This document shows, in pieces, positions 6,081-33,191 of a stretch of DNA of 64,000 nt (the stretch's first letter is position 1; each line of letters opens with the position of its first letter). The stretch is from Microbacterium lacus. Its GTDB lineage: Bacteria > Actinomycetota > Actinomycetes > Actinomycetales > Microbacteriaceae. The notes under the pieces were generated by a model, which was not told the origin of the DNA, did not search any database, and was given only the letters and a program-made list of their open reading frames with translations. The DNA lies in contig NZ_BAAAPK010000001.1 in assembly GCF_039531105.1 (NCBI RefSeq), positions 2,790,001-2,854,000 of the forward strand, given 5' to 3'. The translations under genes were made by a program, and so were the position numbers.

Positions 6081-6165
6081 GGAGGATTCGCCTAGTGGCC
6101 TATGGCGCACGCTTGGAAAGCGTGTTGAGTGAAAGCTCTCAGGGGTTCGAATCCCCTATCCTCCG
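6081..6165 (+). tRNA. tRNA-Ser (anticodon GGA)
   Basis: The 85-nt gene has acceptor arms GGAGGAT and ATCCTCC plus discriminator G. The anticodon stem CACGC/GCGTG has the loop TTGGAAA, giving anticodon GGA, which reads UCC/UCU. A long variable arm (TTGAGTGAAAGCTCTC) is diagnostic of a class II serine tRNA. The T-arm is GGGGTTCGAATCCCC. CCA is not encoded. The 3' part is the attachment site of the adjacent island: its last 21 bases plus 3 more are repeated at 32297-32320, so integration restored an intact tRNA gene here. Confidence 0.97.
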
Positions 6166-6168
6166 CTC
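6145..6168. repeat. attL: 24-bp direct repeat within tRNA-Ser 3' end
   Basis: It begins GTTCGAATCC and ends CTCCGCTC, covering the T-loop, acceptor 3' strand and three bases beyond. It is identical to 32297-32320. The similarity continues imperfectly for about 9 bp further (C/T differences, then CGATCC) on both sides, as expected if the duplicated core is part of a longer ancestral site. Confidence 0.92.
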
Positions 6169-6558
6169 CCCCGATCCCAGTGTTTTCAAGGGATCGCGAC
6201 CCGATTTTTTCTGGGTGGCACAATTGGTGGCACAGTTAGCGCCGATTTCGGCGCCCCGGGAGCCCTGATTTTCCGCGAAGCGCACCAGCGCTGACATGAG
6301 CCGGTCACGACGTGGCGTCGCCATGTCACATCTGGCGCTGGCGGGTTTCGGACACGATTTCGCCGATGGTTGGCCATCCCTCCGACAGCGAGATGGTAGC
6401 GATCGGCCGCGTCTCCGTTCCCTCAGATCGCTCTTTGCAGACTCCGCTCTCCGCTGCGTTGCGAGCTGCGCTTAGCAAACCGCTCACACCGGGCACTGCG
6501 CCGCGCCCGATCGCTTGTTGGCTGATTGTCGGAGCGAGGGCGAGCGCTGAGGCGGTGG
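6166..6558. promoter_or_regulatory. Island left end: paired GTGGCACA arm-type sites and GCGCCGA hairpin
   Basis: No convincing gene lies in this 393-bp stretch. Two GTGGCACA direct repeats sit at 6215-6222 and 6227-6234 (12-bp period), about 50 bp from the attL core. They are followed at 6239-6254 by a 7-bp-stem hairpin (GCGCCGA-TT-TCGGCGC). Matching paired GTGGCACA repeats occur near the right end (32158-32176), which fits arm-type binding sites of the tyrosine integrase. The rest of the stretch shows nothing I can name. Confidence 0.55.
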
Positions 6559-7794
6559 TTAAGGAGTCGTGAGTGTCGACTGGTTTGTTGGCGCCGGCGA
6601 GAGAAGCTGGCCTACAAGATCTGCTGCACCGCGTTGGAGAGTCCTCACGGCGTGCGAGTAGGTGTTGAGGGTCGTCTGGATGTCTGCATGCCCGAGACGC
6701 TCGGACACGATCTTCGGATGCACGCCGGCCCGCAGGAGCAGCGTGGCGTGGGTATGCCGCAGCTCATGGAGGTGGAGCTCGTCGAGATCTGGATGCAGCG
6801 CACACGCCTTCAGCACCCGTTCACGCCACTGGCGGGAGAACTGCGTGGGGTTGTGGGGCTGACCGTAGCGGTTGCAGAAGATCAGGTGCTCGCCGCGAGC
6901 AAGCTCCGGCGAGACGGCGCGGAGCATGTCGCGCTTCGCACGGAAAGCACCGGCGAGATGCACGTCGATGTCGACGTTCCGGACACGTCCGCTCTTCGTG
7001 GCTCGGAAGTCGATGATCGGCTTCTTTCCCGCTTCCTTCACGTATGACATCGCGCGGGCGATCGTGATCACGTTGTTCTCGAGGTCGAGATCCTTCCACC
7101 GGATGCCGAGGATCTCGCCGCGGCGCATCCCGGTCCCCAACAGCGTCAGCCAGGCGAGCCAGAGGTAGTCCCCCGATGACTTCGACCAGTCCAGGAACAG
7201 CCGTGCATCCTCAGCGGACCATGTCGCCATTTCGGGCGGTGCGGCCTCGAGCTTGCTCGGCGGGGACGCACGCTTCGCGGGATTGAAGCGGATTAGTCCG
7301 TCCTCGAGCGCATGCTGCAGCACCTGCGAGATCAGCACATGGATGTGTCGCACAGTCGCAGCGCCGAGCGGATCGCCAATGTGACCGCGGTCCTTCCGGC
7401 CGTTCACCTCAAGCTGCCGGTAGAAGCGGTTCAGCTGGTCCTTCGAGATCGCGGCGATCGGCGTGCGTCCCACTGCGGAGGGAAACACGTGGACGCGGAA
7501 ATGCTTGCGGTAGCCGGCAAGGGTCGTTGGGCGGACGCGCAGCGAATCGAAGTACTCCTCCGCATAACCGTTGAGCGTCTCGCGCGTCTCCTCGATGTGA
7601 TCACCGCGACGGATGTCCACCTGCACTTCAGTCAGCGCGTTGAGCGCCTCCCGCTCCGTCGCGAAACCCCTACGGAACCTTCGGGCCGAATCGCCGTCGG
7701 CGCGATCCACGTGATAGGCGATCCGGTACTTCGTCTCCCCCGTCTTCGTTACATACGAAGAGACGGTCCCATCTTGGTTGGGTCGACGCGGCAC
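6559..7794 (-). CDS. int: Tyrosine-type site-specific integrase
   Basis: This 411-residue phage-type integrase has a GTG start. The N-terminus has an arm-binding (AP2-like) segment 'DGTVSSYVTKTGETKYRI', followed by a SAM-like core-binding domain (about 70-170) and the catalytic domain (about 190-390). The catalytic residues are visible: Arg in 'GTGMRRGEILG', the H-x-x-R box in 'HELRHTHATLL', His in 'LGHADIQTTL', and the nucleophile Tyr in 'NTYSHAV'. It reads towards the tRNA-Ser gene, 390 bp away, and is the enzyme expected to have inserted the island there. An HTH gene ends 8 nt upstream, so the two probably form one transcript. Confidence 0.95.
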   Translation of the reverse strand: MPRRPNQDGTVSSYVTKTGETKYRIAYHVDRADGDSARRFRRGFATEREALNALTEVQVDIRRGDHIEETRETLNGYAEEYFDSLRVRPTTLAGYRKHFRVHVFPSAVGRTPIAAISKDQLNRFYRQLEVNGRKDRGHIGDPLGAATVRHIHVLISQVLQHALEDGLIRFNPAKRASPPSKLEAAPPEMATWSAEDARLFLDWSKSSGDYLWLAWLTLLGTGMRRGEILGIRWKDLDLENNVITIARAMSYVKEAGKKPIIDFRATKSGRVRNVDIDVHLAGAFRAKRDMLRAVSPELARGEHLIFCNRYGQPHNPTQFSRQWRERVLKACALHPDLDELHLHELRHTHATLLLRAGVHPKIVSERLGHADIQTTLNTYSHAVRTLQRGAADLVGQLLSPAPTNQSTLTTP

Positions 7795-19709: not shown

Positions 19710-20090
19710 ATGGCACGGAGCAGGAAAACGAAGCCAATCTTCCGTCGCGAAGAAGCGTATCGCCGGCAGCGAGAGGCGAACGACGCGGCCGCCGCGGTGG
19801 CACGTGAGCGAGCAAGAATGGTGGCGGAAGCGGAACGCTCGACCGCGGCGAATCGAGATCTGCAACTCGTTTGGGGTGGCCGCGAAGACGGACTCGCACG
19901 GCTTCGCGACATTTCACGCCAGCTGGAAAAGCTACATCGAGCGGAACGCGCCCTGCTTCACGAACGAGATGAGCTAGTCCATGTCCTCCGACGAGTGGAC
20001 GTCTCGTGGTCGCTGCTATCCACATGGTCCGGCCTGAGCCGCCAAGCGCTCAGCAAGCGACCGAAGGCGAGCCGACCGTCGTCCGCATGA
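19710..20090 (+). CDS. Hypothetical protein, coiled-coil plus HTH-like tail
   Basis: This 126-residue protein starts at ATG 19710 (MARSRKTKPIFRREE). Residues about 10-55 are highly charged and predicted coiled coil. Residues about 70-95 form a second helical stretch ('RQLEKLHRAERALLHERDEL'). Residues about 97-120 look like a helix-turn-helix ('VSWSLLSTWSGLSRQALSKR'). It reads in the same direction as the large NTPase gene, with a 245-bp gap. It could be a DNA-binding accessory or regulator of that gene. No family is recognised. Confidence 0.5.
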   Translation: MARSRKTKPIFRREEAYRRQREANDAAAAVARERARMVAEAERSTAANRDLQLVWGGREDGLARLRDISRQLEKLHRAERALLHERDELVHVLRRVDVSWSLLSTWSGLSRQALSKRPKASRPSSA

Positions 20091-20335
20091 GTTACCGCGG
20101 CTGGGCCAAAGATCGGGCAGGTCCAACGCCACGTGCTTGTGTCAGGGCAGACCATCCGAACACAGAGTGTGATCGTTGCACTCAAGGACCGGCCTACGGG
20201 CACTGCGCGAACGACGCAGTGCCGCGCCCGACATGGGTTGTGGTGTCGTAGCGCTCCCGACCGGGCGGGGGTGGCTAGCCTGGTCGTCAGCCTGCGCGTC
20301 GGATATGGGATCCGGAGAATCAAGGGGACAGACGG

Positions 20336-23300
20336 ATGTCAGAGAGCGTCAATGGTCGCGACGCTGTTCCGCCTTTGCAAATGGGCGATTTGAATGTGGG
20401 TCAGGCTGGATCTAGCCCGTATGCGACGGGCGGCGGGGGGACCTCGTTTGCTCACCGGGTCGCTGCCGTGTATCTCGCAAGTATGCTCACGCGCAGTCGA
20501 CGGGCGGAACTGGAAGAGCAGTCGGTCCACCGCATCTCATTTCAAACCGGGCCGACGCACCCGGTCGACGATCTGCTGGTCGCGTACTCGAGCGGGACTG
20601 TCGACGGCACGCTGGCCATTGCCTGCCGGGCGACGCCGAACTGGGTTCGAAGCCACCAGAGCACCGTTGACCTCGTGAAATCGTTGCTGTCCGAGCTCGC
20701 GACTCATGATCGTGAGACTCATCGGGTCGCCGTCGCGGTGTCCGGACGTTCGAGCCAGAGCGATCAACTCGCGAGGGTGTGCGATATCGCTCGCGCGCAC
20801 GCCGACGCGGATGCGTTCCATGCGTCTTTTGACGTCGACGGACGGTGGTCCGCGCCGGTCAGACGTCGCTACTCGCAGTTCTTGGACATGGTCGAGCTGG
20901 CTGTGGGAGCCCCACCGTCCGACCCTTCGATCGCGCAGCGTGCGTGGCACTTGCTTTCGCGATTGCATGTTCTCTCAATTAGGGTTCAGGGTCACGACGA
21001 CACAGATCGGGTGTCTCTCGCGACATCTCTGGATACTGTGGCATCGCCACAGGGCGACGGTATCGCTGTCAGGGACCGGCTCGAAGTTGAGGCCACCCGG
21101 TACGACGCGACTGGCGCGACTGTAGACCGGAACCTTCTCCGACGCGACCTTCATTCTGTCTTGGACTCGCCGCTTACCCGAAGCACCGTCGCGTGGGGTG
21201 TGCTGGCCGAACATCGAAAAGTAGCCACCGCCAGCGTGCGACTCACCATTGGAGATGACGCCTCTTCGAATGGGCCGTTGACGTTGGGTTTTTCCGATCG
21301 TCGTGTCCAGCTAGCCGAGCGGCTGGAGGCGAGCGCCACGTCTGGCGGTGCCCTGCTGGTCGTCGGAGAGTCAGGCGCCGGCAAGAGCGCGTTGGTGTTG
21401 TCAACGGTCGCCGACCTAGAGGAGGCGAACGCCGACGAGTTCGAGGCTTTAGTCATCAACTTTCGCAACTTGCCCGATACGGGGATGGAACTTCGCGCCG
21501 CCCTCGGCATGTCCGTTCAGGACCTACTCGGCGAGCTATCCGCAGCGGGCCGACTCGTCGTCATCGACGCTGCAGACGCCGCGCTAGAGAGATCTTCGGG
21601 GCTCCTGAACGAGCTTGTCCACGCCGCCCGATCCGCAGGCATCGGGGCTGTCGCGGTCACCTCGGCATCCGCCGCCGACTACGTGCAGGAACAGCTCGCC
21701 GCTGCTTACTCATCCGAAGTTGACACGTTCGAAGTGGCGCCGCTCAGTGACGAGGACGTGCGAGAAGTGTCCGAGCACTTTCCGCTGCTACGGAATGTCC
21801 TGCGCGACCTGCCAGCGTCCTCGTTGCTGCGACGGCCGGTGGTCCTTGATCTCCTCGCGCGAACCGAACTGCAGGTTGAACGCTCGCTGGGGGAATGGGA
21901 ATGCCTTGAACTTGTGTGGCGCAAGATCGTGCGCGCAGAGGGGCGTACTGGGGCGGGCTCTTCAGAGGCGCGCGAACAGACCTTACTCGCGACCGCCGCT
22001 GCCGCACTCAACCTGCCGATCCAGTCGCGCCCGGAGCTCGGTTTCGATTCAGCCGCTGTAGATCAACTTCGCCGAGACCACCTCCTATCCCCAGCCAGCC
22101 CGTATCGACATCGACCGGAGTTCGCGCACGACGAGATACGCCGCTACGCCACCGCGATCCTCCTCGTTCGTGCCCACACGCCCACCGAGACCCTTGAATC
22201 GGCAGAGGCGCCGAGATGGGCGCTGTCCGCGGCCACACTGGCTCTCAAGGGGCAGCTCCTGGCGCCCGGCGCTCAGCCGCCCCGAGTCTTTGCCGAAGCG
22301 CTGCGCAGCTTCCATGGCTTTGCCGACCGCCACGGTGCACGATGGGCGGACGTGCCCATCGAAGCTGTCACAGAGACTCCACAGGCGTACGACTGCCTCA
22401 GGGCCGCCCTCACCGCCGACCACCCCCTCTTGACGCTTAAGGACGTCGTGCGAGTAACGCAGCAACGCCATCAAGTCGCTGGGCGGCTCGACGCTGTCGC
22501 ATCGACGCCTGTGATCAGGGTCCTCCTGGACGAGGAGCAACCCTGGGATGTCTCGAAGGACTCGTTCCAGCTTCTCGTCAGCTGGCTGCAAGCACTGGTC
22601 CTCGCGCAGCTCCCGGCCGGGAACCTTCTCCGCACGACACTGCGCGACCGACTCCTCACCTTCTGGGAACTTCATCCATCGCGGCAGGTCTCCGCCATCG
22701 ATCCCAGCAGCTACCTTGGTGGACATCGACGCCGCCGACGGCGCGCACTGGACTACCACGTCACCTCCGAGGAGTTTGTCGAGTCGTTAGCCCTTCTCGG
22801 CCCGGACCTGAACGAACGCGTGGAGGCATGCCTGCGGGCGATCGCAGCTGACGCTCCCGCATTCCTTGCTCCAGCGGTCGACGAACCATTGAGCGCGAGG
22901 GCTCTTGCCCTGCATGACCCCGAGTTGCTCGCCGACCTGATCGAGGCCTATTACATCGACGACGACACAGAGGATTGGCACCTCGACCACGGCGTACGAC
23001 GCCATCAGAGCCGATGGACAGGGTTCGGGGTTCCCCTGTTCGCCTATTACTTCGGAGGGTTCTGGCCACTGTTCCAAACAGCCCCCTTCACGACCTCGAT
23101 TCGCGTGCTCAACAAGATCCTGAACCACGGCGCGGCCACTCGCGTCCAGACCCTCGCACGTCACCGTAGGCAAGGCGAGATCGACGAGGACGACCGCGGC
23201 GTGGTCATGACCCTTGACGGCGTCGAGCGAACCTACGTGGGAGATAGCCACGTCTGGAGTTGGTATCGCGGCACCTCGGTCGGCCCGTATCCGGGGATGA

Positions 23301-25339
23301 GCGCGCTCCTGGCAATGGAACGGGTCGCCGAAGGGTGGCTCGATCAGGGGATACCACCCGGCAGAGTAGTCGATGTGCTGCTCGCGGGGTGCGAAAACCT
23401 CGCCGTCCCCGGAATGCTCTACGGGCTCCTCGTGCGGCATATCGAGAAGGTCGGTCCCGAACTCGACTTCTTCCTAGCCGAGCCGGCGGTGTGGGAACTC
23501 GAGTTTGGCCGAGTCACCAGCGAGTATTCGGGACTGCGCGCAAACACCGATGACCTCGCGAACAATGACCGCCGTCAATGGTCGCCCCGAGACGTCAGCG
23601 CCTGGCTCATCACCCACGGTGAGGAAGAGCGCATAGCCTCCCTCAGAACGGTCGGAGAGACGCTAATTCGAAACGGCGAGCGGCTCGGTCTCACGGACGA
23701 GCGTGCGAAAGGCTGGGCCGCCAGCCTCGATGCGTCCCGCTATCAGATCACCCAGCAGGGGGATCAGTACTATCTGGAGGTCGTGCCGCCACCGGAAGTC
23801 ATCGCGGCACAGCGGGAGATGGCTTCCTACCAGGAGGAGGTACAGACGACGCTCCGACTCCAGAATCGTTACTGGGGTTCCGCGAAACACGACCCCGACT
23901 ATCAATTCCCGACCGTCGCGGAGATCGCTGCTGACCTCAAGGCGGCCAAAGAGCTGCTGGAGTCCGACGGACAACAACTGCCAAGCGACCGCATCGACGT
24001 CGTCGCACAGGTGGTGGGCGCCGCCGTCTCTCGCGCCGCGGACGGCGAGCCAGAGGCTTTCGGAGATGAAGAGCAGTTCGCCACCCGTCTCGTGCTCGAT
24101 GTGGCGCTGTCGTTTCGGAAGGCGCACAGCCAGCGCCACGAAGGGCAGTACTTCGACTTAGGCGCCGACCGCGCTGTCGCACGATGTCTTCCGGCGTACC
24201 TCACCACCCTGCTCAGACCACTTCTTCACGAGGTCGGGGCAACCGACAGGGACGTCGCCGCGGGGGGAATGGCGATGGCGTCACGTGCAACATCGGAAAC
24301 CCGCCTCTACCTTGCCCGAGGATGCGACATCGTCTGGACGGCGCCGTGCGCGGGTAGCCCCTGCGCCCACGAGATAGCGGTGGGCTGGCTTCTGGAGAGC
24401 GCCCGCGACGCGGAGATCGGACCGTGGAGTCAAAAAAAGCAACGCCCCACCCGTAAGCGCATCAAGGGCGATGTGATCGCCCGCCTGCAGCGCATCCCGG
24501 GCGATTCCATACGCATCGAAGCACTCGACCCGGCAATCCGAGGCCTCGGCGCTGCCTCTCGATGGCAGCACTGCCGATCCGATGAGGCCGCAGCTGCGCT
24601 GAGCACGCTCCTTCACATCCAGCGGCACGCGATGGTCGTTCACGAAGAAAAGGGCTGGACCGCCGACGACCGGGGCAGTCACACCCTGATCGCCGCGCGC
24701 GCCCTGCTCGACACCACGTCCGCAATAGCCGATTCAAGTGCGGTTCTCGACTACCTCGACACGCTTCGCGTTGACGCGGGGCTCATGACTAACTTCCTTC
24801 ACGGTCTCGCAGCGGCCGGCGCGGAAACCCAGGCTCGCGCTGACATCATTCGTGAACTGTGGCCGCCGCTGTTGGCTCACGCGTCGGGCTACATCAACGA
24901 CGGCACGGACACCTTCCGAGACAGACACTGGGGTGACTGGGCGGCGGCCGCGTTGCTACCGGACCCACTGACGTGGACGCAGGGCCTCTACAACGAGGTT
25001 GTCGGGACGGCGATCGATTGGGTTCGGGCTGACGATCTCTCGAACCTGATCGACGGGTGGATTCCCGCCGGCCGCGGGAGCATAAAGTGCGTTGACGCCT
25101 TGATCCGCATCCTTCGCCGGATGCCCATGCCCGATCAGGTAGTCCGCGGCCTTGCGTGGATGAGCGAACTCTGCGTTCAAGACAACCGAGCGACCGTGAA
25201 GCAGACCTGGACTTCGGACGAATGGCTGAAAGAAGTTAGAAGCGCGGCCGAAGAACACGGACTGCTCGACCAATGGCAAATGTTGGTTGACGCAATGGTT
25301 GTCGCCGGTAACGAGGGTCTCGCCCCCTACAGCCGATAA
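20336..25339 (+). CDS. Large STAND-type NTPase, candidate Avs-like antiviral protein
   Basis: This 1667-residue protein starts at ATG 20336 after AAGGGGA. Residues 35-230 resemble a degenerate restriction-endonuclease-like effector domain ('GTSFAHRVAAVYLASML', 'VDDL' at 77-80, 'ACR' at 96-98 where a Q-x-K strand would be expected). Residues about 330-560 are a P-loop NTPase: Walker A GESGAGKS (344-351, Lys350) and Walker B LVVIDAAD (407-414). Residues 600-1667 are largely alpha-helical without a named domain, as in STAND sensor regions. The N-effector / NTPase / long helical C-terminus layout and the length are those of Avs (AVAST) anti-phage proteins. This is an architecture argument only, and no homology search was run. 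Confidence 0.75.
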   Translation: MSESVNGRDAVPPLQMGDLNVGQAGSSPYATGGGGTSFAHRVAAVYLASMLTRSRRAELEEQSVHRISFQTGPTHPVDDLLVAYSSGTVDGTLAIACRATPNWVRSHQSTVDLVKSLLSELATHDRETHRVAVAVSGRSSQSDQLARVCDIARAHADADAFHASFDVDGRWSAPVRRRYSQFLDMVELAVGAPPSDPSIAQRAWHLLSRLHVLSIRVQGHDDTDRVSLATSLDTVASPQGDGIAVRDRLEVEATRYDATGATVDRNLLRRDLHSVLDSPLTRSTVAWGVLAEHRKVATASVRLTIGDDASSNGPLTLGFSDRRVQLAERLEASATSGGALLVVGESGAGKSALVLSTVADLEEANADEFEALVINFRNLPDTGMELRAALGMSVQDLLGELSAAGRLVVIDAADAALERSSGLLNELVHAARSAGIGAVAVTSASAADYVQEQLAAAYSSEVDTFEVAPLSDEDVREVSEHFPLLRNVLRDLPASSLLRRPVVLDLLARTELQVERSLGEWECLELVWRKIVRAEGRTGAGSSEAREQTLLATAAAALNLPIQSRPELGFDSAAVDQLRRDHLLSPASPYRHRPEFAHDEIRRYATAILLVRAHTPTETLESAEAPRWALSAATLALKGQLLAPGAQPPRVFAEALRSFHGFADRHGARWADVPIEAVTETPQAYDCLRAALTADHPLLTLKDVVRVTQQRHQVAGRLDAVASTPVIRVLLDEEQPWDVSKDSFQLLVSWLQALVLAQLPAGNLLRTTLRDRLLTFWELHPSRQVSAIDPSSYLGGHRRRRRRALDYHVTSEEFVESLALLGPDLNERVEACLRAIAADAPAFLAPAVDEPLSARALALHDPELLADLIEAYYIDDDTEDWHLDHGVRRHQSRWTGFGVPLFAYYFGGFWPLFQTAPFTTSIRVLNKILNHGAATRVQTLARHRRQGEIDEDDRGVVMTLDGVERTYVGDSHVWSWYRGTSVGPYPGMSALLAMERVAEGWLDQGIPPGRVVDVLLAGCENLAVPGMLYGLLVRHIEKVGPELDFFLAEPAVWELEFGRVTSEYSGLRANTDDLANNDRRQWSPRDVSAWLITHGEEERIASLRTVGETLIRNGERLGLTDERAKGWAASLDASRYQITQQGDQYYLEVVPPPEVIAAQREMASYQEEVQTTLRLQNRYWGSAKHDPDYQFPTVAEIAADLKAAKELLESDGQQLPSDRIDVVAQVVGAAVSRAADGEPEAFGDEEQFATRLVLDVALSFRKAHSQRHEGQYFDLGADRAVARCLPAYLTTLLRPLLHEVGATDRDVAAGGMAMASRATSETRLYLARGCDIVWTAPCAGSPCAHEIAVGWLLESARDAEIGPWSQKKQRPTRKRIKGDVIARLQRIPGDSIRIEALDPAIRGLGAASRWQHCRSDEAAAALSTLLHIQRHAMVVHEEKGWTADDRGSHTLIAARALLDTTSAIADSSAVLDYLDTLRVDAGLMTNFLHGLAAAGAETQARADIIRELWPPLLAHASGYINDGTDTFRDRHWGDWAAAALLPDPLTWTQGLYNEVVGTAIDWVRADDLSNLIDGWIPAGRGSIKCVDALIRILRRMPMPDQVVRGLAWMSELCVQDNRATVKQTWTSDEWLKEVRSAAEEHGLLDQWQMLVDAMVVAGNEGLAPYSR

Positions 25340-25569
25340 TCTCCTCACGCCATCCGCCGCCGACTGCTCGCGACTAAGCTGCCGCGAGAATCCACGCGAG
25401 AACCACCGACGTGTCCGACGAGAAGTCCATGTCCTGCGACAGCTCGCCTCCCGCCTGGCCAATCGCATGGATCAGGATCCGATCACCGGCCGATCAACGT
25501 TGCTGACAACAGCCGCCGCTACTTCCGCATGTCGCTTCACTCTCGACAGTTTGAGGCCGTCTAGGAACG
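25340..25569. other. Non-coding gap after the large NTPase gene
   Basis: This 230-bp stretch lies between two convergent genes. I see no hairpin strong enough to call a terminator and no supported coding sequence. Confidence 0.4.
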
Positions 25570-25755
25570 TCACGGCTCATTGCGACGACCCTGGATCATC
25601 GTGATCGTCTTGATCGCGAGATCGACGATCGCGTCCTCCAGATCCTCGCCGGTGCGTCCCGATGCCTTGATCGCGTCGACCTCGACCAGGAACCCCGCCG
25701 CGTTGGGGTTCGCAACGACATAGGCCTTGAGCCGCGCGTAATGGCTATCCGTCAT
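25570..25755 (-). CDS. Small hypothetical protein
   Basis: This 61-residue protein starts at ATG 25755 (MTDSHYARLKAYVV). A longer reading exists upstream but is poorly structured. The helix-rich sequence ends 'DLAIKTITMIQGRRNEP'. No family is recognised. It is convergent with the large NTPase gene (231-bp gap) and on the same strand as the next two hypothetical genes. Confidence 0.4.
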   Translation of the reverse strand: MTDSHYARLKAYVVANPNAAGFLVEVDAIKASGRTGEDLEDAIVDLAIKTITMIQGRRNEP

Positions 25756-25874
25756 GCGGCATGCTATCCAAATGCTCGCTCCGAGAGCACGCCGGATGCT
25801 GATCCGCGCGCGCACTGGGTGGCGCGTTTGGGCACAGCCGGCCGGATAGGGACGGTCGAGCCACGCTCTGACAC

Positions 25875-26591
25875 CTACCGGCTCGATTCGTCCTTCTCGC
25901 GTGCGGGCACCTGCATTAGCGGCGAGCTCAGCGCACCCACGATCTCTCCAGTTTTCATGGCGCCCCGATAGGCCCTCGGCCAGACGTTCGCATGCATCTC
26001 CGTCAGCTCGACAAGCCAGAAACACGCGAGAATCTTGTCGTCGTCACTGCCGAACGACGGAATCGAGGACCAGCTGAAGCCGCCGTCCGCGTCCGACGCG
26101 GCTCGAAAAGGTTGGGTGAAACCCGAGGCGACGGGGTGAGTGAACTCGGACAGCTGCTCATACACGTCCTTGAAGCCCGGCGCACGCTTTGCGGCGTTTG
26201 CGATAAGTCGACCAACTGCGAACCGCTGATCCTGCTGCGCGATAGCCGACACGCGACCGATGTCGTGTGGGTGCTCGAGCACCCACAGCAACACGGCCGC
26301 GTTCTCGGCATAACAGCGGACGAGGGGAAATGCAGCGTAGGGGTTGTCGGACTCGACTGCCTGCAACGCCCCGTTGTGGAAGCCCTGGGCTCGCGTTATG
26401 AGCGCGAGAAGTCCCATTACCTCGATCGTTAGGTCCGCCTGGACGACACGATCGAGCGATCGTCCGAATCTGGCAAACTTCGCTCGCGCGATTGCAATCG
26501 CGGACTCAAGATCGTGCATCCCACGCGACGCTGGCGAACTCGAGGGCAGTTCCTCGCTCTCCTCTTCCTTCACTCCGGGAGCATCGCACAT
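25875..26591 (-). CDS. Hypothetical helical protein (island defence region)
   Basis: This 238-residue protein may start at ATG 26591 or at the internal ATG 26519. It is helix-rich; residues about 90-112 contain 'PLVRCYAENAAVLLWVLEHP', an Arg/Glu pattern reminiscent of DUF5677-like helical proteins. The C-terminal half has His (SEFTHPVASG) and aromatic residues, as in that group. Its gene neighbour at 26696 has a similar 'LRVAIECMATAHWLIAD' segment, so the two may be distant relatives. No function is known. Confidence 0.5.
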   Translation of the reverse strand: MCDAPGVKEEESEELPSSSPASRGMHDLESAIAIARAKFARFGRSLDRVVQADLTIEVMGLLALITRAQGFHNGALQAVESDNPYAAFPLVRCYAENAAVLLWVLEHPHDIGRVSAIAQQDQRFAVGRLIANAAKRAPGFKDVYEQLSEFTHPVASGFTQPFRAASDADGGFSWSSIPSFGSDDDKILACFWLVELTEMHANVWPRAYRGAMKTGEIVGALSSPLMQVPAREKDESSR

Positions 26592-26695
26592 TCATGAAGC
26601 TCGCCGACGCCGCTCCACCGGGCGATGCCCGAATGGGGATCATTCTTGAACCTATGATCCGCCGTTCGCGGGACGGTCTTCTACCGCTGCCGCCA

Positions 26696-27520
26696 TCAGC
26701 TCACGGGGCGCCGGTTCTTGTGCTCCTCCGTCGCGTAGAGCATGAACAACTCGACTGTGGTTTGCAAGTCGGTGACGGCGATCTCAAGGAAGTTCGCGTA
26801 GACATTCATGCTGATCGGATGCTCAGCAGGGTTCCGAACCGCACGCGGCTCAACACCGATCCCAGCTGAGATCGAGATGTTCCCGTGGGACACACCTGCG
26901 CACGCCATCCAGCATGATTGCATCAAAGTCGGATAGCTCGGTCGCACAGCGCGGCTTGCCTCCTGAACGATGCTGCTCAGCGCCACTCTCTTGGACGTCG
27001 TCACCTTCTCCGGGTCAAGTCCTTTGATCGGCTGAGCGATCTCGTGAATCGTTTCCTCGAGGTCGTACACCGCGCTGAGATCGGGATCCGCGTCCGCGAC
27101 AACCGCCATATCAACGGCGCTCTCAGTGTCCCACCACATCCGTTTGAGGAATCGTTCGACCCTGCCACGGAGAGAGCGGTCCGCGATGAGCCAGTGCGCT
27201 GTCGCCATGCACTCGATCGCGACTCTGAGCACAACGAATGAAGCAAGGGCCGGCGCGCCACCGCCGCAGGCAGATTCGATGTAGTGCTGTGCCAGGCGAA
27301 GTTGAGTCCGCACCAAGTCCGAGGGGAGGAAAGTTCCCTCGAAATGCCGATCAACCGCGAACGCCCGCCCTCCGGGCACGATAATCACACTGCTAAGTAG
27401 CCCGCCGATCGATTCCAGGCGGGCGCGGCTGGCATGAAGGTGTGCTTGTGGATCCGGTCTCGGTACTCGCGCGTCAAGGAACTCCGACATGCGTCTGAGT
27501 TCGTGTTCATCCATCTCCAC
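26696..27520 (-). CDS. Hypothetical helical protein (island defence region)
   Basis: This 274-residue protein has a GTG start at 27520, with ATG 27514 as an alternative. Residues about 90-120 carry 'FVVLRVAIECMATAHWLIAD', which parallels the R-x-x-x-E motif of the protein at 25875. Residues about 195-215 have 'CWMACAGVSHGNIS', with a conserved-looking His that recalls the C-terminal His/Asn of DUF5677-type proteins. The function is unknown. It is divergent from the HipA-like kinase locus (333-bp gap that holds the 15-bp dyad). Confidence 0.5.
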   Translation of the reverse strand: MEMDEHELRRMSEFLDARVPRPDPQAHLHASRARLESIGGLLSSVIIVPGGRAFAVDRHFEGTFLPSDLVRTQLRLAQHYIESACGGGAPALASFVVLRVAIECMATAHWLIADRSLRGRVERFLKRMWWDTESAVDMAVVADADPDLSAVYDLEETIHEIAQPIKGLDPEKVTTSKRVALSSIVQEASRAVRPSYPTLMQSCWMACAGVSHGNISISAGIGVEPRAVRNPAEHPISMNVYANFLEIAVTDLQTTVELFMLYATEEHKNRRPVS

Positions 27521-27853
27521 AGGTTCAGGCTATGTCGGATGTCCCCGGTGCTTTTCCGAAGCACGGGCGGAGTGTTCGCGATGGCGGCGTGGCCGCATCG
27601 GGCGATCGCTTCGACTACGACGGCGACGTCGGCGCTGTCACGCGAGACTGGTACTGACGGGTGACATCTTGACTTGGCTTGCACGAAGGGGCCCGTTCAC
27701 CGCGCAACGCCCGCATGAGGATCCTGATCGTTCTGTGGAATTCCTGAGTGCTGGATCCCCAAGGATGCCGAGCCGGAGTACCAGGGAGAGTTTCGCGGGG
27801 TACTCCGGCTCGGGTGTCAGCGGACTGGGGGCGTCGGAGATAACGTCGACAGC
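27521..27853. promoter_or_regulatory. Gap before the HipA-like locus, with a perfect 15-bp inverted repeat
   Basis: The perfect dyad CCGAGCCGGAGTACC / GGTACTCCGGCTCGG occupies 27768-27782 and 27799-27813, with a 16-bp spacer. It lies 40 bp upstream of the kinase start. It could be an operator or a transcript hairpin. No antitoxin-type HTH gene is adjacent. No coding sequence is supported elsewhere in the 333-bp gap. Confidence 0.6.
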
Positions 27854-28765
27854 ATGCCGACTGCCTGGGAGTCCCTACACTTCATGCGCGGCGCCGCAGA
27901 GGCCGACGAACCGATGGGATCGAAGGAAAAGTGGTGGGTTGAACTGCCAATGCTCGGCGAGAGGCCCTGGCTGCTCAAATTGGCGCGACTCGACGAGCGC
28001 GATGGGACCGTCAGCGGAGAGGACTGGGCCGAGTGGACCGTCCACCAGCTCGCTGAACAGCTCGGCGTCCCCAGCGCAACCATTCGTCCCGCAATGCTGG
28101 AGAATCGCCGGGCAATTATTTCGAGATCCGTGCTGCGTGATGATTTCGAGTATCTCGACCACGGCAATAGCGTCCTGTCCGCCCGATTTCCAGGCTATGA
28201 CCAGTCGGTCCAAGGCGAGAACCCGGGCTACACACCGTTCGCGGTTCGACACGCCCTCGCAGAGGTTGCCCCACCCGCAGACAATGATTGGCCGGCTGGC
28301 TTCACTGCGTTTGATGTTTGGGCTGGCTACCTGCTCATGGATGCGTGGACTGCGGGACGCGACCGACACCATGAGAACTGGGCAGTCGTGCTTCGTGCCG
28401 ACGAACGCCGACTGGCGCCCTCGTTCGACCACGGGAATGCGCTCGGGTTCCAAGAGCGAGACGAGCGTCGCGTCCGGATGTTGGCCGATGAAGCGCACCT
28501 AATGCGGTGGGCGGAGCGCGGGGCCAGCCGGCACTTTGTCGGACAGCCCAAGCTCACCGACCTCGCATGGAGTGCACTGAACCTCGCATCACGGCAGGCC
28601 CGGCGGTTCTGGGTCGAACGACTCGACGAGATCTCCGAAGATGCAGTTCGTTCCGTCGTCTCACAAGTCCCGCGCGGGATAATGTCGGAAGTCACCCATA
28701 GATTTGTGGTTCAACTATTGGTGACGAATCGGAGGAGGTTGCTCGATGGCTACTCAAGCACTTGA
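27854..28765 (+). CDS. HipA-like serine/threonine kinase
   Basis: This 303-residue protein has the kinase core of HipA proteins but not their N-terminal subdomain. 'GSKEKW' (22-27) parallels the Ser/Gly loop that precedes the ATP pocket. Lys42 ('PWLLK') is a probable ATP-binding Lys. The catalytic loop is 'GRDRHHENW' (Asp170, Asn175), and the metal-binding Asp192 is in 'SFDHGNALGF'. HipA kinases phosphorylate translation factors or tRNA synthetases and cause growth arrest. The missing N-subdomain is supplied by the next gene, whose start overlaps this stop by 20 nt, so the pair is a split HipA. No HipB-like gene is visible. Confidence 0.78.
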   Translation: MPTAWESLHFMRGAAEADEPMGSKEKWWVELPMLGERPWLLKLARLDERDGTVSGEDWAEWTVHQLAEQLGVPSATIRPAMLENRRAIISRSVLRDDFEYLDHGNSVLSARFPGYDQSVQGENPGYTPFAVRHALAEVAPPADNDWPAGFTAFDVWAGYLLMDAWTAGRDRHHENWAVVLRADERRLAPSFDHGNALGFQERDERRVRMLADEAHLMRWAERGASRHFVGQPKLTDLAWSALNLASRQARRFWVERLDEISEDAVRSVVSQVPRGIMSEVTHRFVVQLLVTNRRRLLDGYSST

Positions 28766-29471
28766 CCGTGACCAGCTCGACCTCACCGCGAGCCGCAAGA
28801 CCCTGATCCTCGTTTGGCAGAACCCGGTCACCAGGCTCTTCGTCAAGGTGGGCCAACTCGACGCCCTGCCTGGGGGGAGGTTTGCCTTCCAATACCTCCC
28901 GGGGGCGTGGAACGACCCCGCGTTCGTTCCGCTACTCGAATATCCTGACCGCGACACCGCCTACGTCTCGGACGAGGTGCCGGCGTTCTTCGCGAACCGC
29001 ATCCTTTCTGTCGACCGCCCTCACTACGACCGTTACCTCAGCTGGCTTGGCATTGAGGATCTCAGCCCGGACGAGGTCCCGTTCGAGGTCTTGGCTCGCA
29101 CCGGCGGAGGTCGAGCAACAGACACTTTCCACGTAGTCGAGCTCCCGCTCGCCAAAGCAGATCGGTTCACGAGCCGGTTCTTCGTTTCTGGTGTTCGCTA
29201 CTTCGCCGATTCGGATGCCGCTATCGCCACGCTGAAGAACGGGGCGACGCTTCGACTTGAGCTAGACGAGGGTAACGAGGTGAACCCGAAGGCGGTCCTC
29301 GTCAACACCATCGATGGTCAAAAGTTTGGCTACGTTCCGGACTGGCTCTGCAGCGACGTTCACGCGCGCGCCAAGGACGGTTGGTCGGTCACCGCGGTGG
29401 CCGAGCGCGTGAATCCGGACGCCCCAGCTCACGTACGTGTGCTCTGCCGACTCGAAGCACGCCGGGGCTGA
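28746..29471 (+). CDS. HipA N-subdomain fused to HIRAN domain
   Basis: This 241-residue protein has GGAGG 8 nt before ATG 28746, inside the end of the kinase gene. Residues about 20-105 match the HipA N-terminal domain ('VKVGQLDALPGGRFAFQY', 'PLLEYPD', 'VPAFFANRILSVDRPHYDRYL'). Residues about 145-235 match a HIRAN domain ('SGVRYFADSDAAIATL', 'NEVNPKAVLV', 'FGYVPDWL'), a module that binds single-stranded 3' ends of damaged or unwound DNA. The coupling to the kinase recalls the HipS antitoxin of HipBST systems, but with an added DNA-sensing domain. The role as antitoxin or sensor is inferred. Confidence 0.75.
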   Translation: MATQALDRDQLDLTASRKTLILVWQNPVTRLFVKVGQLDALPGGRFAFQYLPGAWNDPAFVPLLEYPDRDTAYVSDEVPAFFANRILSVDRPHYDRYLSWLGIEDLSPDEVPFEVLARTGGGRATDTFHVVELPLAKADRFTSRFFVSGVRYFADSDAAIATLKNGATLRLELDEGNEVNPKAVLVNTIDGQKFGYVPDWLCSDVHARAKDGWSVTAVAERVNPDAPAHVRVLCRLEARRG

Positions 29472-29619
29472 CTGCACGCTGGCGTTCTGAATCGATCTCG
29501 CAGACGGGGCGGCCTCGGGCTGCGCAATCAAGAGTCGACATTCGGTGTCCGCTAAGCGAGACGATCGTCAACAATCCGCCCGCCATGCCCGCTGAGGGAT
29601 CCTTGCCAAGACTGGTTAG

Positions 29620-30621
29620 TCAGTCGTTGTGTGCCGGGCCTGTTCTGCCTGTGTCTTGGTATCGCTTGGCGAGGGTGGCGAAGGCGGCGGCGAGTTCGGG
29701 GGGACCGACGACGTCCATCGGTACTTCGAATTTTCCGAATGACGCGGCCAAGGCGCCCCACGACCACGAGCCTGATTCGAGACTGCAGGTGTGGTCGTCG
29801 ATGACTGTGACGGTTCCGTCCCCGGCGAAGGGAAGAACGTCGCGCGCTGGGAGGTGGAGGATGACCGTGCCGCGGCAGGCCCATTCGTTGGCGTCGGACC
29901 CCTTGAAGCGGGCCGAGACGAATTCATCGACGTCGCCGCCGGGCACCGTGCGCGGGGTGAACCGCGGACCGTGCGGGGTGCGTGTATGAATGCGTTCCAC
30001 GCTGTAGAGGCGCCAGTTTTTGCGGTCGAGGTCCCACCCGAGCAGATACCACCGCCCGTGTGAGCTGACGAGATGGTGAGGTTCGGCTCGGCGCGGGCGG
30101 AGCAGCGGGGTCGCATCGGTATCGACGGCCTCGCGCGCCGGATAGTCGAAGCGAAGCGTTTCGCGGTCGCGGATGGCATTGGCCAGGGTGACGAGGGCGT
30201 CGAGTGAGATGTGGATCGGCGGCGGATCGCCGGGACGGCCGACCACGGTGACGTTGAGCGCGTCCAGACGGTGCCGGAGGCGTGAGGGCATGACTTGCCG
30301 GATGGTGGCGAGAGCGCGGATCGCGGCCTCTTCGATTCCCGCGCCGATGGCGGGGGCGGCCTGCAGAGCGATGGCGACAGCGATGGTTTGATCGTCGTCG
30401 AAGAGGAGTGGTGGCAGTTCGCTTCCCGCGTCGAGCCGGTAGCCGCCGTCCGGGCCCATGGTCGCCTGGATGCGGTAGCCCATCTCGCGGAGTCGGTCGA
30501 CATCGCGGCGCACCGTGCGGGGGCTGATCTCGAGCCTTTCGGCGAGCAACGGACCGGGCCAGTCGCGCCGCGTCTGCAGGAGCGACAGCAGGCTGAGCAG
30601 CCGGGAAGTCGTCGTCGCCAT
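29620..30621 (-). CDS. WYL-domain transcriptional regulator (DeoR/YobV-like)
   Basis: This 333-residue regulator has an N-terminal winged HTH at residues 5-60 ('LLAERLEISPRTVRRDVDRLREMGY'). The WYL domain is at about 140-215, with the pattern 'HHLVSSHGRWYLLGWDLDRKNWRLYSVERI', in which the conserved residues are W-Y-L and R-x-x-R. A C-terminal WCX-like domain follows. WYL proteins bind nucleic acids or ligands and regulate stress or defence genes. ATG 30621 is chosen because the HTH begins 5 residues later. It is divergent from the VOC gene, with 99 bp between them. Confidence 0.9.
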   Translation of the reverse strand: MATTTSRLLSLLSLLQTRRDWPGPLLAERLEISPRTVRRDVDRLREMGYRIQATMGPDGGYRLDAGSELPPLLFDDDQTIAVAIALQAAPAIGAGIEEAAIRALATIRQVMPSRLRHRLDALNVTVVGRPGDPPPIHISLDALVTLANAIRDRETLRFDYPAREAVDTDATPLLRPRRAEPHHLVSSHGRWYLLGWDLDRKNWRLYSVERIHTRTPHGPRFTPRTVPGGDVDEFVSARFKGSDANEWACRGTVILHLPARDVLPFAGDGTVTVIDDHTCSLESGSWSWGALAASFGKFEVPMDVVGPPELAAAFATLAKRYQDTGRTGPAHND

Positions 30622-30720
30622 CTCTCGAGAGTAGACGCAGTGTAGGACCGAAGCTGACCTATACGGATGGGAGCGTGGTTGCAGCGACCCGAACGGGTCG
30701 ATTCTCACCAAGGAGCACAG

Positions 30721-31176
30721 ATGACCATCCAGACCACTACCCACCTGAACTTCCGCGGCGATGCCCGGGCCGCACTGGAGTTCTACCAGTCCGTGTTCGG
30801 CGGACACACCGTCATCAACACCTACGCAGATTTCGGGATGCCGGCCGATGTGCCCGGTGCCGACAAGGTCGTCTTCGGCCTCGTGTCCGCGGACAACGGA
30901 TTCCGCGTGATGGGCTACGACATCCCCGGCCAGACCGAGGGCTGGATCGCCGGAGGCGGCTCCACCCGCCGCGAGGACAACACCACGATCACCGACCAGG
31001 CGGTGTTCGTCTCGATCAGTTCCGACACGCTCGAGGAGGCCCGACGCTACTGGGACGTCCTGGCGCGCGACGCCATCATCGTCGAGCCGCTCGCCGCCTC
31101 GGCGTGGAGCGCGGGATTCGGCATGCTGACCGACCGTTTCGGCGTCACCTGGAGCGTCAGCGTCGCCGGAGCCTGA
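30721..31176 (+). CDS. VOC family (PhnB/glyoxalase-like) protein
   Basis: This 151-residue protein has the VOC fold pattern 'HLNFRGDARAALEFYQSVFGG' at the N-terminus and 'AAWS..FGMLTDRFGVTW' at the C-terminus, typical of PhnB-like members. The expected metal and substrate positions cannot be assigned. AAGGAGCACAG lies just before the ATG. It is divergent from the WYL regulator, a frequent pairing in Actinobacteria, and is probably its target. Confidence 0.87.
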   Translation: MTIQTTTHLNFRGDARAALEFYQSVFGGHTVINTYADFGMPADVPGADKVVFGLVSADNGFRVMGYDIPGQTEGWIAGGGSTRREDNTTITDQAVFVSISSDTLEEARRYWDVLARDAIIVEPLAASAWSAGFGMLTDRFGVTWSVSVAGA

Positions 31177-31413
31177 CTTACCTCTGCGGTGCGGGTCGGC
31201 CCGACCCGCACCGCGCCCATCTCTCCCGTCCTCGGGCTCTTCACCCCACGACGTGCAATCCCGCGCGGCCCGCCCCGCGTCTCATCGCTTGACCGCCCCG
31301 TCAAAGGGCATCTACCTCACCCCGGCAACACTTCGGCCCGCTAACGGATCCCAAGAGAGTTGGGTCCCGGATAGAGTCGCGAACGTGATAGCTCCACTCG
31401 TACCGGTGCGCCT

Positions 31414-31950
31414 GTGACCGCTGAGGAGCCGTGGTATTCGCAGTTGCGTGAGCAATGGAGGCCGCAGCATGTCAGGCTGCTCATGATCGCCGAGAGTGCG
31501 CCCGACGATGGTGGGGACGTCTCGCGTCGCCGATTCTTCTACGCGGACAGACTCGGTGCTGACAACCTGTTCCGTGGCGTCGTCGAGGCGATGTACGGGA
31601 GCACGAAGGATGATCTGAAGCGAACAGGAAAGCGCCCATGGCTGGAGCGGCTTCAAACTGACGGGTTCTTCCTGATCGATTTGGCTCCATACCCCGTCAA
31701 CGCACTTGGCAGCGCGGCACGTCGGCGTTCGCTGCTCGACGCCGTCCCCGGGTGCGTGTCCCGCGCGGCGGAGGTGGCGCCCGATGGTGTAGTCGTAGTT
31801 AAGGCCGATCTTTATCCCATGCTCGCGGGTCCGCTCCGCAAAGCCGACCTCCCGCTTCTGCAAGACGGCCCGATCGCATTTCCCCTCGGCAACACACGCG
31901 CCGAATTCGTCGACGGATTCAACCGAGCTCGATCGAAGCTTGGCGCGTAA
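31414..31950 (+). CDS. Hypothetical protein, possible uracil-DNA-glycosylase-like fold
   Basis: This 178-residue protein has a GTG start. 'VRLLMIAESAP' at about residues 20-30 and 'GFFLIDLAPYPVN' at about residues 85-97 loosely match the two first motifs of UDG-superfamily proteins. The third motif is not evident. No catalytic residue can be assigned, so this is only a fold guess. It is the last gene before the island's right end. Confidence 0.45.
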   Translation: MTAEEPWYSQLREQWRPQHVRLLMIAESAPDDGGDVSRRRFFYADRLGADNLFRGVVEAMYGSTKDDLKRTGKRPWLERLQTDGFFLIDLAPYPVNALGSAARRRSLLDAVPGCVSRAAEVAPDGVVVVKADLYPMLAGPLRKADLPLLQDGPIAFPLGNTRAEFVDGFNRARSKLGA

Positions 31951-32296
31951 CCGACCGACACGAGGGTCGGCGTTGCCCATCATCGATCGTTTGACGCCGG
32001 CTCTACGGGACGATTGACGACGATTATGCGACCAGTGTCCGGCTAGGGATCCTGATCGGCCGATTCGCCGAATTCAACCGACACTCGAACCGCGCTTCGG
32101 AGGACCGAGGCCACAAAGAGAGCCAGGCTTGCGCCACTGGCTCAGTGTCGGCCCCCCGTGGCACAGTTGTGGCACAGTTAAGCGCGACACGCCGTGCATT
32201 CAAAGGCAGGGGGATGCTGTTGTGCCACGATTTCGGTCTCACGAAAACCGCGTAATTACGCGGCAAAACGCGGTATTTGCGCCCCAGAAAATCGGA
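31951..32296. promoter_or_regulatory. Island right end: paired GTGGCACA sites and a 16-bp palindrome
   Basis: GTGGCACA direct repeats lie at 32158-32165 and 32169-32176 (11-bp period). An inverted copy, TGTGCCAC, is at 32221-32228, and the perfect palindrome CCGCGTAATTACGCGG is at 32248-32263. Together with the repeats at 6215-6234 these are candidate integrase arm sites. No gene is supported in this stretch. Confidence 0.55.
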
Positions 32297-32320
32297 GTTC
32301 GAATCCCCTATCCTCCGCTC
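32297..32320. repeat. attR: copy of the tRNA-Ser 3' end
   Basis: This is identical over 24 bp to 6145-6168. It carries the T-loop/acceptor 3' segment only (no D-arm or anticodon), so it is not a second tRNA gene. It is preceded by ATCGGA rather than the tRNA sequence. It marks the right boundary of the island. Confidence 0.92.
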
Positions 32321-32465
32321 TCTCGATCCTCGTGCTCATGCGGGATCTGCACGCCGTCAGGATCTCGACACGACCTCTCGACGCGTCCTCCCGCCGTTCT
32401 CCGACTCTCCCGCCTCCTTCGCACGATGCCGTTGAGCATCCGCCGACGTCGAGACGGTTCGACGG

Positions 32466-33191
32466 TCAGCCGGCGGTGTTTGGCCCGTGCGCCACGGTGG
32501 GGAACAAGAAGGCGGCGAGTCCGAGGGCGATGCCTCCCCCGATGAGCTGAGCCGCGAGGAAGGGAAGGACCGAGGCCGGCGCGATGCCGGCGAAGGTGTC
32601 CGTGAAGATACGACCGATCGTGACGGCGGGGTTGGCGAACGAGGTGGAGCTGGTGAACCAGTACGCCGCGCCGATGTAGGCACCGACGGCCGCGGCGATC
32701 ACCGGCACGGAGCGTCGTGTGCGGGTCAGCCCGACGATCAGCAGGACGAGCCCCGCGGTCGCGACGATCTCGGCGAGGAAAGTGGCCGGGGTCGCGCGAT
32801 CAGTGCTCGAGACCGCGGTCGGCGTGTCGAACATCGCGTTGGCGAGGATCGCTCCGCCGATCGCGCCCAGGATCTGCGCGACGATGTAGGCGACCAGCGC
32901 TCCCGCGGGGAGTCCCGCACGAGAGCGGCGACCGAGGACTGCGTCCGCGAGCGAGACGACAGGGTTGAAGTGCGCCTCCGACACGGGCGCCAGCAGCAGG
33001 ATGAGGACGCCGAGGCCGAGCGCGGTGGCGAGCGAGTTCTCCAGCAGCTGCAGGCCGGGGTCGGCGGAGAGCCGCTGAGCGGCGATGCCGGAACCGACGA
33101 CGATCCCGACGAGCAGCCCGGTTCCCAGGAATTCAGCGACACAGCGACGCCAGAGGGGCGCCTTCGCGAGGGCGGGGCCGTCGATCGTCAC
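32466..33191 (-). CDS. Aquaporin-family channel (AqpS-like, arsenic locus)
   Basis: This 241-residue MIP-family channel has six hydrophobic segments. The first pore box is 'HFNPVVSLAD' (NPV in place of NPA) and the second is 'SFANPAVTIGR' (NPA). In Sinorhizobium meliloti an aquaglyceroporin (AqpS) in the ars operon conducts As(III) out after ArsC action, and the gene order here is comparable. It has a GTG start that overlaps the stop of the ArsC gene upstream by 4 nt (GTGA). No ArsB/Acr3 gene is in this locus, so this is the only visible export route for arsenite. That role is inferred from family and context. Confidence 0.88.
   Translation of the reverse strand: MTIDGPALAKAPLWRRCVAEFLGTGLLVGIVVGSGIAAQRLSADPGLQLLENSLATALGLGVLILLLAPVSEAHFNPVVSLADAVLGRRSRAGLPAGALVAYIVAQILGAIGGAILANAMFDTPTAVSSTDRATPATFLAEIVATAGLVLLIVGLTRTRRSVPVIAAAVGAYIGAAYWFTSSTSFANPAVTIGRIFTDTFAGIAPASVLPFLAAQLIGGGIALGLAAFLFPTVAHGPNTAG

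Follow-up and report, generated by a model that had tools for sequence, protein, structure and literature searches.

A hipIN kinase and HIRAN-domain gene pair of Microbacterium lacus, a candidate defence cassette on a putative integrated element

Two overlapping genes in the window (the whole 64,000-nucleotide stretch of Microbacterium lacus DNA analysed here) are a real module and a further member of the published hipIN group, and we consider it probable that this module (PDC-M03) is a two-gene cassette of toxin-antitoxin type serving defence, in which a kinase held by HipN is freed by a phage-related signal. The pair has already been published, together with its antitoxin logic and a proposed trigger; new here are the asymmetry with which kinase and HipN are lost, the placements in restriction operons and phages, the tRNA-Ser element and the incompleteness of the HLTF-type pocket.

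Results

Features of the M. lacus window that bear on the hipIN pair (positions within the window)
Feature	Position	Strand	Basis or remark
tRNA-Ser(GGA), element insertion site	6081..6166	+	ARAGORN
Left attachment-like repeat, tRNA-Ser 3' end	6145..6177	+	31/33 identical to 32297-32329, 24 exact
Tyrosine integrase	6559..7794	-	Phage_integrase E 9e-26
NACHT/STAND-like protein, 1667 aa, possible co-carried defence gene	20336..25339	+	Weak N-terminal matches
HipI-type kinase, 303 aa, putative toxin	27854..28765	+	HipA core kinase without N-subdomain-1
HipN, putative antitoxin and sensor	28746..29471	+	HipS-like domain and HIRAN domain
Right attachment-like repeat	32297..32329	+	Repeat of tRNA-Ser end

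The gene pair

The two open reading frames lie in different frames, kinase first, and share 20 nt, an overlap that has the look of translational coupling. The hipI frame starts at the ATG at 27854, the same codon at which DNA similarity to close relatives begins (the Microbacterium flavum gene starts with GTG at the equivalent position), and hipN starts at the ATG at 28746, preceded by GGAGGAGG. Both products match, nearly full length and as adjacent genes, the PADLOC candidate pair PDC-M03A/PDC-M03B (kinase E 6.3e-99, HipN E 2.1e-72; models from PADLOC-DB 2.0.0), and the length of the kinase falls inside the 279-321 aa range published for HipI (PMC8262856).

The initial annotation had taken the locus for a split HipA without HipB, and domain and fold matches bear this out: the kinase has no N-subdomain, in the product of the overlapping second gene a HipS-like domain is joined to HIRAN, and the operon holds no HTH partner. 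No HipB adjoins the pair, the two upstream neighbours being minus-strand genes that gave no HTH match, and the sole HTH protein beside it (29620-30807, HTH_11 and WYL) is convergent and lies downstream. No sigma-70 promoter was found for the pair (0.5 expected) and no terminator after it, the single predicted one being inside HipN (1.4 expected); there were no Rfam RNAs within 20000-33000.

The kinase

Sequence comparison and a structure model together establish HipI as a HipA-family kinase that keeps the catalytic and metal-binding residues and lacks the HipA lid. Its HipA_C match in Pfam is weak; the model (pLDDT 92) matches CtkA, HipT and HipA in Foldseek. Residues E19, G22, K42, D170, N175 and D192 are kept in all 36 aligned kinases, as is the catalytic and Mg-binding set D170, R171, H172, N175 and D192, so that the core kinase motifs are present; this alignment omits the broken kinases of L008, L015, L016, L025 and L032 and contains none from L030, L046, L047 or L048. 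The Gly-rich loop sits at about residues 19-26, close to the N terminus.

As an observation in its own right, profile and fold comparisons both place the kinases of HipI type nearer to CtkA of Helicobacter than to HipA or HipT. The CtkA of Helicobacter pylori is the nearest solved structure (profile E 1e-21, fold E 3e-13), which suggests that CtkA belongs to the short-kinase branch of HipI. Its depositors describe CtkA as a proinflammatory kinase, and with this protein as the nearest solved kinase it follows that other roles exist in the branch.

The HipN protein

By sequence and fold it is equally well established that the HipA lid is present in HipN, in the form of a HipS-like domain (about residues 17-134) that is followed by HIRAN (about 137-241). 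Its Pfam Couple_hipA score is slightly below the cut-off, and its match to the HipS fold is clear. The neutralisation of HipT by HipS is experimental (PMC10627512, PMC9325769), and HipS inhibits HipT through a Trp two residues past a conserved Glu. That Glu is found in 39 of 44 HipN rows and is followed two residues on by Phe in 32 and by Pro in 12 of the 44, the window copy having Pro; the counterpart of HipS Trp65 is placed here by Glu-x-Trp spacing alone and, because this correspondence is one of motif only, the details of inhibition by HipN may differ from those of HipS.

The HIRAN domain matches the fold of the DNA-bound HLTF HIRAN, the match beginning at model residue 137, equivalent to HLTF 57. 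We take the DNA contacts of the HLTF domain to be Arg71, Tyr72, Asn91, Tyr93 and Asp94 (residue numbers). In the profile alignment N177, V179 and N180 of HipN fall at the positions of Asn91, Tyr93 and Asp94, N177 aligning with the second Asn of the HLTF motif NNPYD and K182 with the next Asn after it, and R151 and Y152 are placed at Arg71 and Tyr72 only by where the fold match begins and by the lp_0118 alignment. A further HLTF residue, Phe142, is named as a HIRAN contact in PMC8262856, where actinobacterial HipN is presented as an exception among HIRAN domains that retain most motifs. Across the 44 rows of our alignment, which omits the HipN of L048, N177 is kept in 42 and R151 in 35, while position 152 is Tyr in 9, position 179 is Tyr in 8 and position 180 is Asp in 13. 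The 18 actinobacterial rows, of which those of L006 and L007 are near-identical, keep N177 in 18, R151 in 17, Tyr152 in 5, the Tyr93 position in 5, the Asp94 position in 2 and the Asn96 position in none. HipN also has a conserved set of its own (G195, P198, N223, A226, P227 and R231, each in 37 to 44 of the 44 rows, with P198 in 44, N223 in 42 and R231 in 39). The initial annotation had read the domain as a sensor of DNA ends; the fold speaks for this reading, but the window copy differs at several of the HLTF contact positions, and with a partial contact set the case for DNA-end sensing is therefore weaker than was first assumed. As judged from sequence, DNA-end sensing by this HIRAN is plausible.

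Linkage of kinase and HipN

A search of named genomes that started from HipN gave 44 loci, spanning Actinobacteria, Proteobacteria, Planctomycetes, Latescibacterota, Acidobacteria, Gemmatimonadetes, Bacteroidales, Cyanobacteria and others. An open kinase frame on the same strand overlaps HipN or ends at most 23 nt from it in 35 of these. Among the other nine, contig ends cut two (L030, L046), one has no kinase (L047) and six have a broken one (L008, L015, L016, L025, L032, L048), for which sequencing error is possible because most are draft or metagenome contigs. Apparent kinase-HipN fusions in L016 and L047 were rejected: in both, the frame ahead of HipN seems to be an artefact of high GC content, matching the kinase over 60 residues in L016 and not at all in L047.

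Searches that started from the kinase gave matches in 12 of 394 genomes sampled from the class, all 12 with HipN adjoining (11 kinases open, one broken with HipN kept, in G224), and in 18 of 396 genomes sampled from the phylum, the M. lacus genome being counted in both samples. In the phylum sample all seven full-length kinases of the close family have HipN (own genome included), as do two partial kinases (G818, G788); without HipN are one partial kinase at a contig end (G721), five weaker kinases and three genomes with HipA-like matches only. The weaker kinases have E-values of 2e-24 to 6e-17 as compared to 6e-69 or better for the close ones, a split that was set after the scores were known. 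These five (L071, L073, L075, L076, L077) come from two families, with four genomes in the first and one in the second, and have no HipN-like neighbour.

HipN was found in 8 of 72,556 plasmid records and the kinase in seven, all among those eight; in one plasmid record the kinase match coincides with an annotated IS110 transposase and HipN lies about 1.5 kb further, and in the eighth (Oscillatoria) HipN is kept while only about 41 residues of the kinase remain, at its tail end. Phage records gave a similar picture, with HipN in 5 of 50,697 and the kinase in four, all among those five; in the fifth a kinase is annotated and is also matched by tblastn with a kinase panel. Each of the four HipN-bearing viral contigs shows a kinase match directly upstream. 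Chance adjacency of hipI and hipN is ruled out by this linkage across loci. No intact close-family kinase without HipN was found in the kinase-first searches (394 class genomes, 396 phylum genomes, plasmids and phages). HipN without an intact kinase was thus seen and the reverse was not. A kinase that does harm on its own would produce such an asymmetry, which is also partly built in, the HipN-first search finding keepers of HipN and the kinase-first search finding recognisable kinases, with small numbers in both.

Settings in other genomes, plasmids and phages

The defence association that had been surmised for the pair finds support in its occurrence inside type I restriction-modification operons and beside an HmaC gene. 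The order on a Rhodococcus pyridinivorans plasmid (L105 35-8317) is hsdR, hsdS, hipI, hipN, hsdM, and in a planctomycete (L031 4113-14420) it is hsdM, an RmrA/capP-like peptidase gene, hsdS, hipI, hipN, hsdR, so that hipIN occupies different positions in the two operons. On a Nostoc plasmid the pair adjoins HmaC, an Hma gene, and in M. flavum (L006) the gene upstream matches PD-Lambda-2_B. Other neighbours are PD-T4-6-like (L025), pAgo-like (L033), RmrA-like (L041) and PDC-S68/RecD-like (L020); PADLOC matches at E 1e-10 were obtained for 6 of 18 singly scanned neighbours, all hand-picked.

Further plasmid copies adjoin a RES/TnpB region, partition genes or iron-transport genes and are not plainly in defence settings. 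A wider scan covered 104 of 231 neighbouring ORFs, called by a longest-ORF rule and hand-picked as roughly the nearest two per side, from 27 loci (29 of the 44 having been considered); the top families, as the best 25 of 179 and the best 25 of 112, belong mostly to ordinary metabolism and transport in Pfam, as raw, uncontrolled counts. In a Rhodoglobus metagenome-assembled genome (L010 4732-9009) a 1425-aa ORF ends about 45 bases before hipI and is a possible third partner; it has no PADLOC match at E 1e-10.

The integrase side of temperate phages is a frequent place for accessory genes. The pair lies beside an integrase in Vibrio phage 10N.286.55.A12_PE001 (Vinavirales; L104 10953-13770) and in Clostridioides phage phiCDKH02 (L106 3128-5926), and three more Vibrio phage records hold both proteins.

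The tRNA-Ser element

We read window positions 6081-32329 as an integrated element of about 26 kb with hipIN among its cargo, on account of the tRNA-Ser gene, the tyrosine integrase, the 33-base end repeats and a lower GC content. A search of the M. lacus genome with the tRNA end matched these two repeats only (E 0.001), and the pair occupies the two lowest-GC of the 32 2-kb bins of the window (0.617 and 0.629). The relative G047 matches the window up to the tRNA end and then stops, which supports the left border; relatives carry the right-flank genes elsewhere, so that no clean empty site was recovered.

The other cargo includes a multicopper oxidase, sulfur-transfer genes and a NACHT-like gene. 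The 1667-aa product of the last has Pfam matches under the cut-off (NACHT E 0.005, AAA_22 E 3e-4), PADLOC matches to PDC-M54A (E 1e-10, residues 29-416) and Avs4 (E 0.004), and 19 bits against the NCBIfam Avs4 model, whose cut-off is 1500; the rest of the protein has no family match in the Pfam, PADLOC and NCBIfam scans. It could be an undescribed Avs-like sensor. Between this gene and hipIN, two minus-strand ORFs (25875-26591 and 26696-27520) are possibly a further pair, one being weakly DUF5677-like, while no family matched the other convincingly. PADLOC gave no match for ten further ORFs except the WYL protein (29620-30807).

The DNA of M. flavum (L006) and of L007 is similar to the window over 27855-29475 (81%), plus one far-off 91-base match, and that of L008 and L009 over 27855-29458 (80 and 75%); because the similarity covers essentially the pair, the flanking neighbours differ. 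Within the genus HipN is present in 4 of 59 genomes, own included, the copy of G048 being 91% identical. On these sequence comparisons, hipIN is a mobile two-gene cassette.

Discussion

On our preferred reading, HipN would bind the kinase at the site of the HipA lid and block the Gly-rich loop, in the way that HipS acts on HipT, and translational coupling would maintain the supply of HipN. On this scheme the HIRAN domain would read a phage-related signal and the HipI-HipN complex would loosen; free HipI would then phosphorylate a host target, and growth would stop before the phage spreads. In characterised relatives this target is an aminoacyl-tRNA synthetase. The signal may be an end of DNA or of another nucleic acid or, in the actinobacterial branch, possibly a ligand of a different kind. 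Copies embedded in restriction operons or borne by phages point to a concrete, testable trigger. One special form of this scheme, which we hold to be quite unlikely, is that hipIN is a back-up suicide kinase guarding other defences that target DNA, type I restriction foremost among them. HIRAN would then read the DNA ends left by restriction or by phage replication, HipN would free HipI, and infected cells would halt when the first line fails, which would make the module a kinase counterpart of the anticodon nucleases carried in restriction operons.

Several other explanations have to be weighed against the defence cassette. The one to which we give the most credence, doubtful as it is, concerns the trigger: the HIRAN of actinobacterial HipN might no longer bind DNA ends, its pocket having been rebuilt for a nucleotide, an RNA or a phage protein. 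The loss of HLTF residues in this branch (Tyr93 position 5/18, Asp94 2/18, Asn96 0/18) would fit, as would its naming as an exception (PMC8262856) and the separate conserved set of HipN; yet Arg151 and Asn177 are kept (17/18 and 18/18), the fold is that of the DNA-bound HLTF domain, and rows from outside the Actinobacteria also vary (Tyr93 position 3/26, Asp94 position 11/26). Alternatively, hipIN might serve addiction or stability: as a plain toxin-antitoxin pair it would safeguard the maintenance of its element, with HIRAN only anchoring HipN on DNA or regulating the operon and sensing no infection. Its presence on plasmids, in phages and in the integrated element described here agrees with such a role, as do its patchy occurrence in the genus and the DNA similarity of L006-L009, which covers the pair and, in L006 and L007, one distant 91-base match. 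We nevertheless think it unlikely: siting in type I restriction-modification operons and beside HmaC fits defence better, HIRAN would be an odd operator-binding domain, and the loss of kinases with HipN kept suggests that the toxin is often dispensable.

It is also conceivable, and we believe improbable, that HipI is a signalling kinase and not a toxin, which needs HipN as its lid in trans, the two being one enzyme split in two. The same domain does belong to the active enzyme in HipA, and HipL fuses all three parts (PMC8262856), but HipS, the studied counterpart, inhibits HipT (PMC10627512, PMC9325769) and broken kinases beside HipN fit antitoxin logic better. The defence cassette thus stays our preferred reading. 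So read, hipIN is a compact, well-conserved and mobile candidate immune switch in which one protein would act as putative kinase inhibitor and possible nucleic-acid sensor, and the window HipN with its divergent HIRAN is a useful contrast to the copies that keep more DNA-contact residues.

Comparison with known systems

The initial annotation had envisaged a new kind of abortive-infection switch. Novelty of this sort does not hold, since pair and mechanism were proposed in 2021 and PADLOC lists PDC-M03: Gerdes, Baerentsen and Brodersen (mBio 2021, PMC8262856) described hipIN as a HipI kinase with HipN as putative antitoxin, and proposed that HIRAN recognises phage DNA ends, whereupon HipI is activated and abortive infection follows. 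The PADLOC candidates of the PDC series are traced by PMC12988326 to a guilt-by-embedding preprint. About a third of diDNase genes adjoin HipA/HIRAN gene pairs, according to a 2025 paper that cites the hipIN proposal (PMC11706625); no DEDD-exonuclease Pfam family (diDNase-like) was found among the 15 other ORFs scanned from 6559 to 31950. A search of the open-access literature by titles, abstract starts and passages yielded no experimental test of the hipIN module.

The comparison with HipBST drawn in the initial annotation is sound in that both have a split HipA, the lid domain as a separate antitoxin, and matching kinase and HipS folds. The differences are that hipBST has the order B-S-T, an HTH protein and no HIRAN, whereas the window pair has the kinase first and HIRAN added; hipBST proper is ruled out by the missing HipB and by the encoding of the HipS-like domain after the kinase. 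HipL has kinase, HipS-like domain and HIRAN in the same order, as a single-gene fusion of all three parts (PMC8262856), and is ruled out by the two ORFs in different frames. With hipIN the window pair shares the order of kinase and then HipS-HIRAN, the short kinase without N-subdomain-1 and Actinobacteria among the hosts (PMC8262856). The assignment to hipIN is made by gene order, size, motifs and domains, and the pair differs in kind neither from published hipIN nor from PDC-M03, the candidate phage-defence pair of PADLOC.
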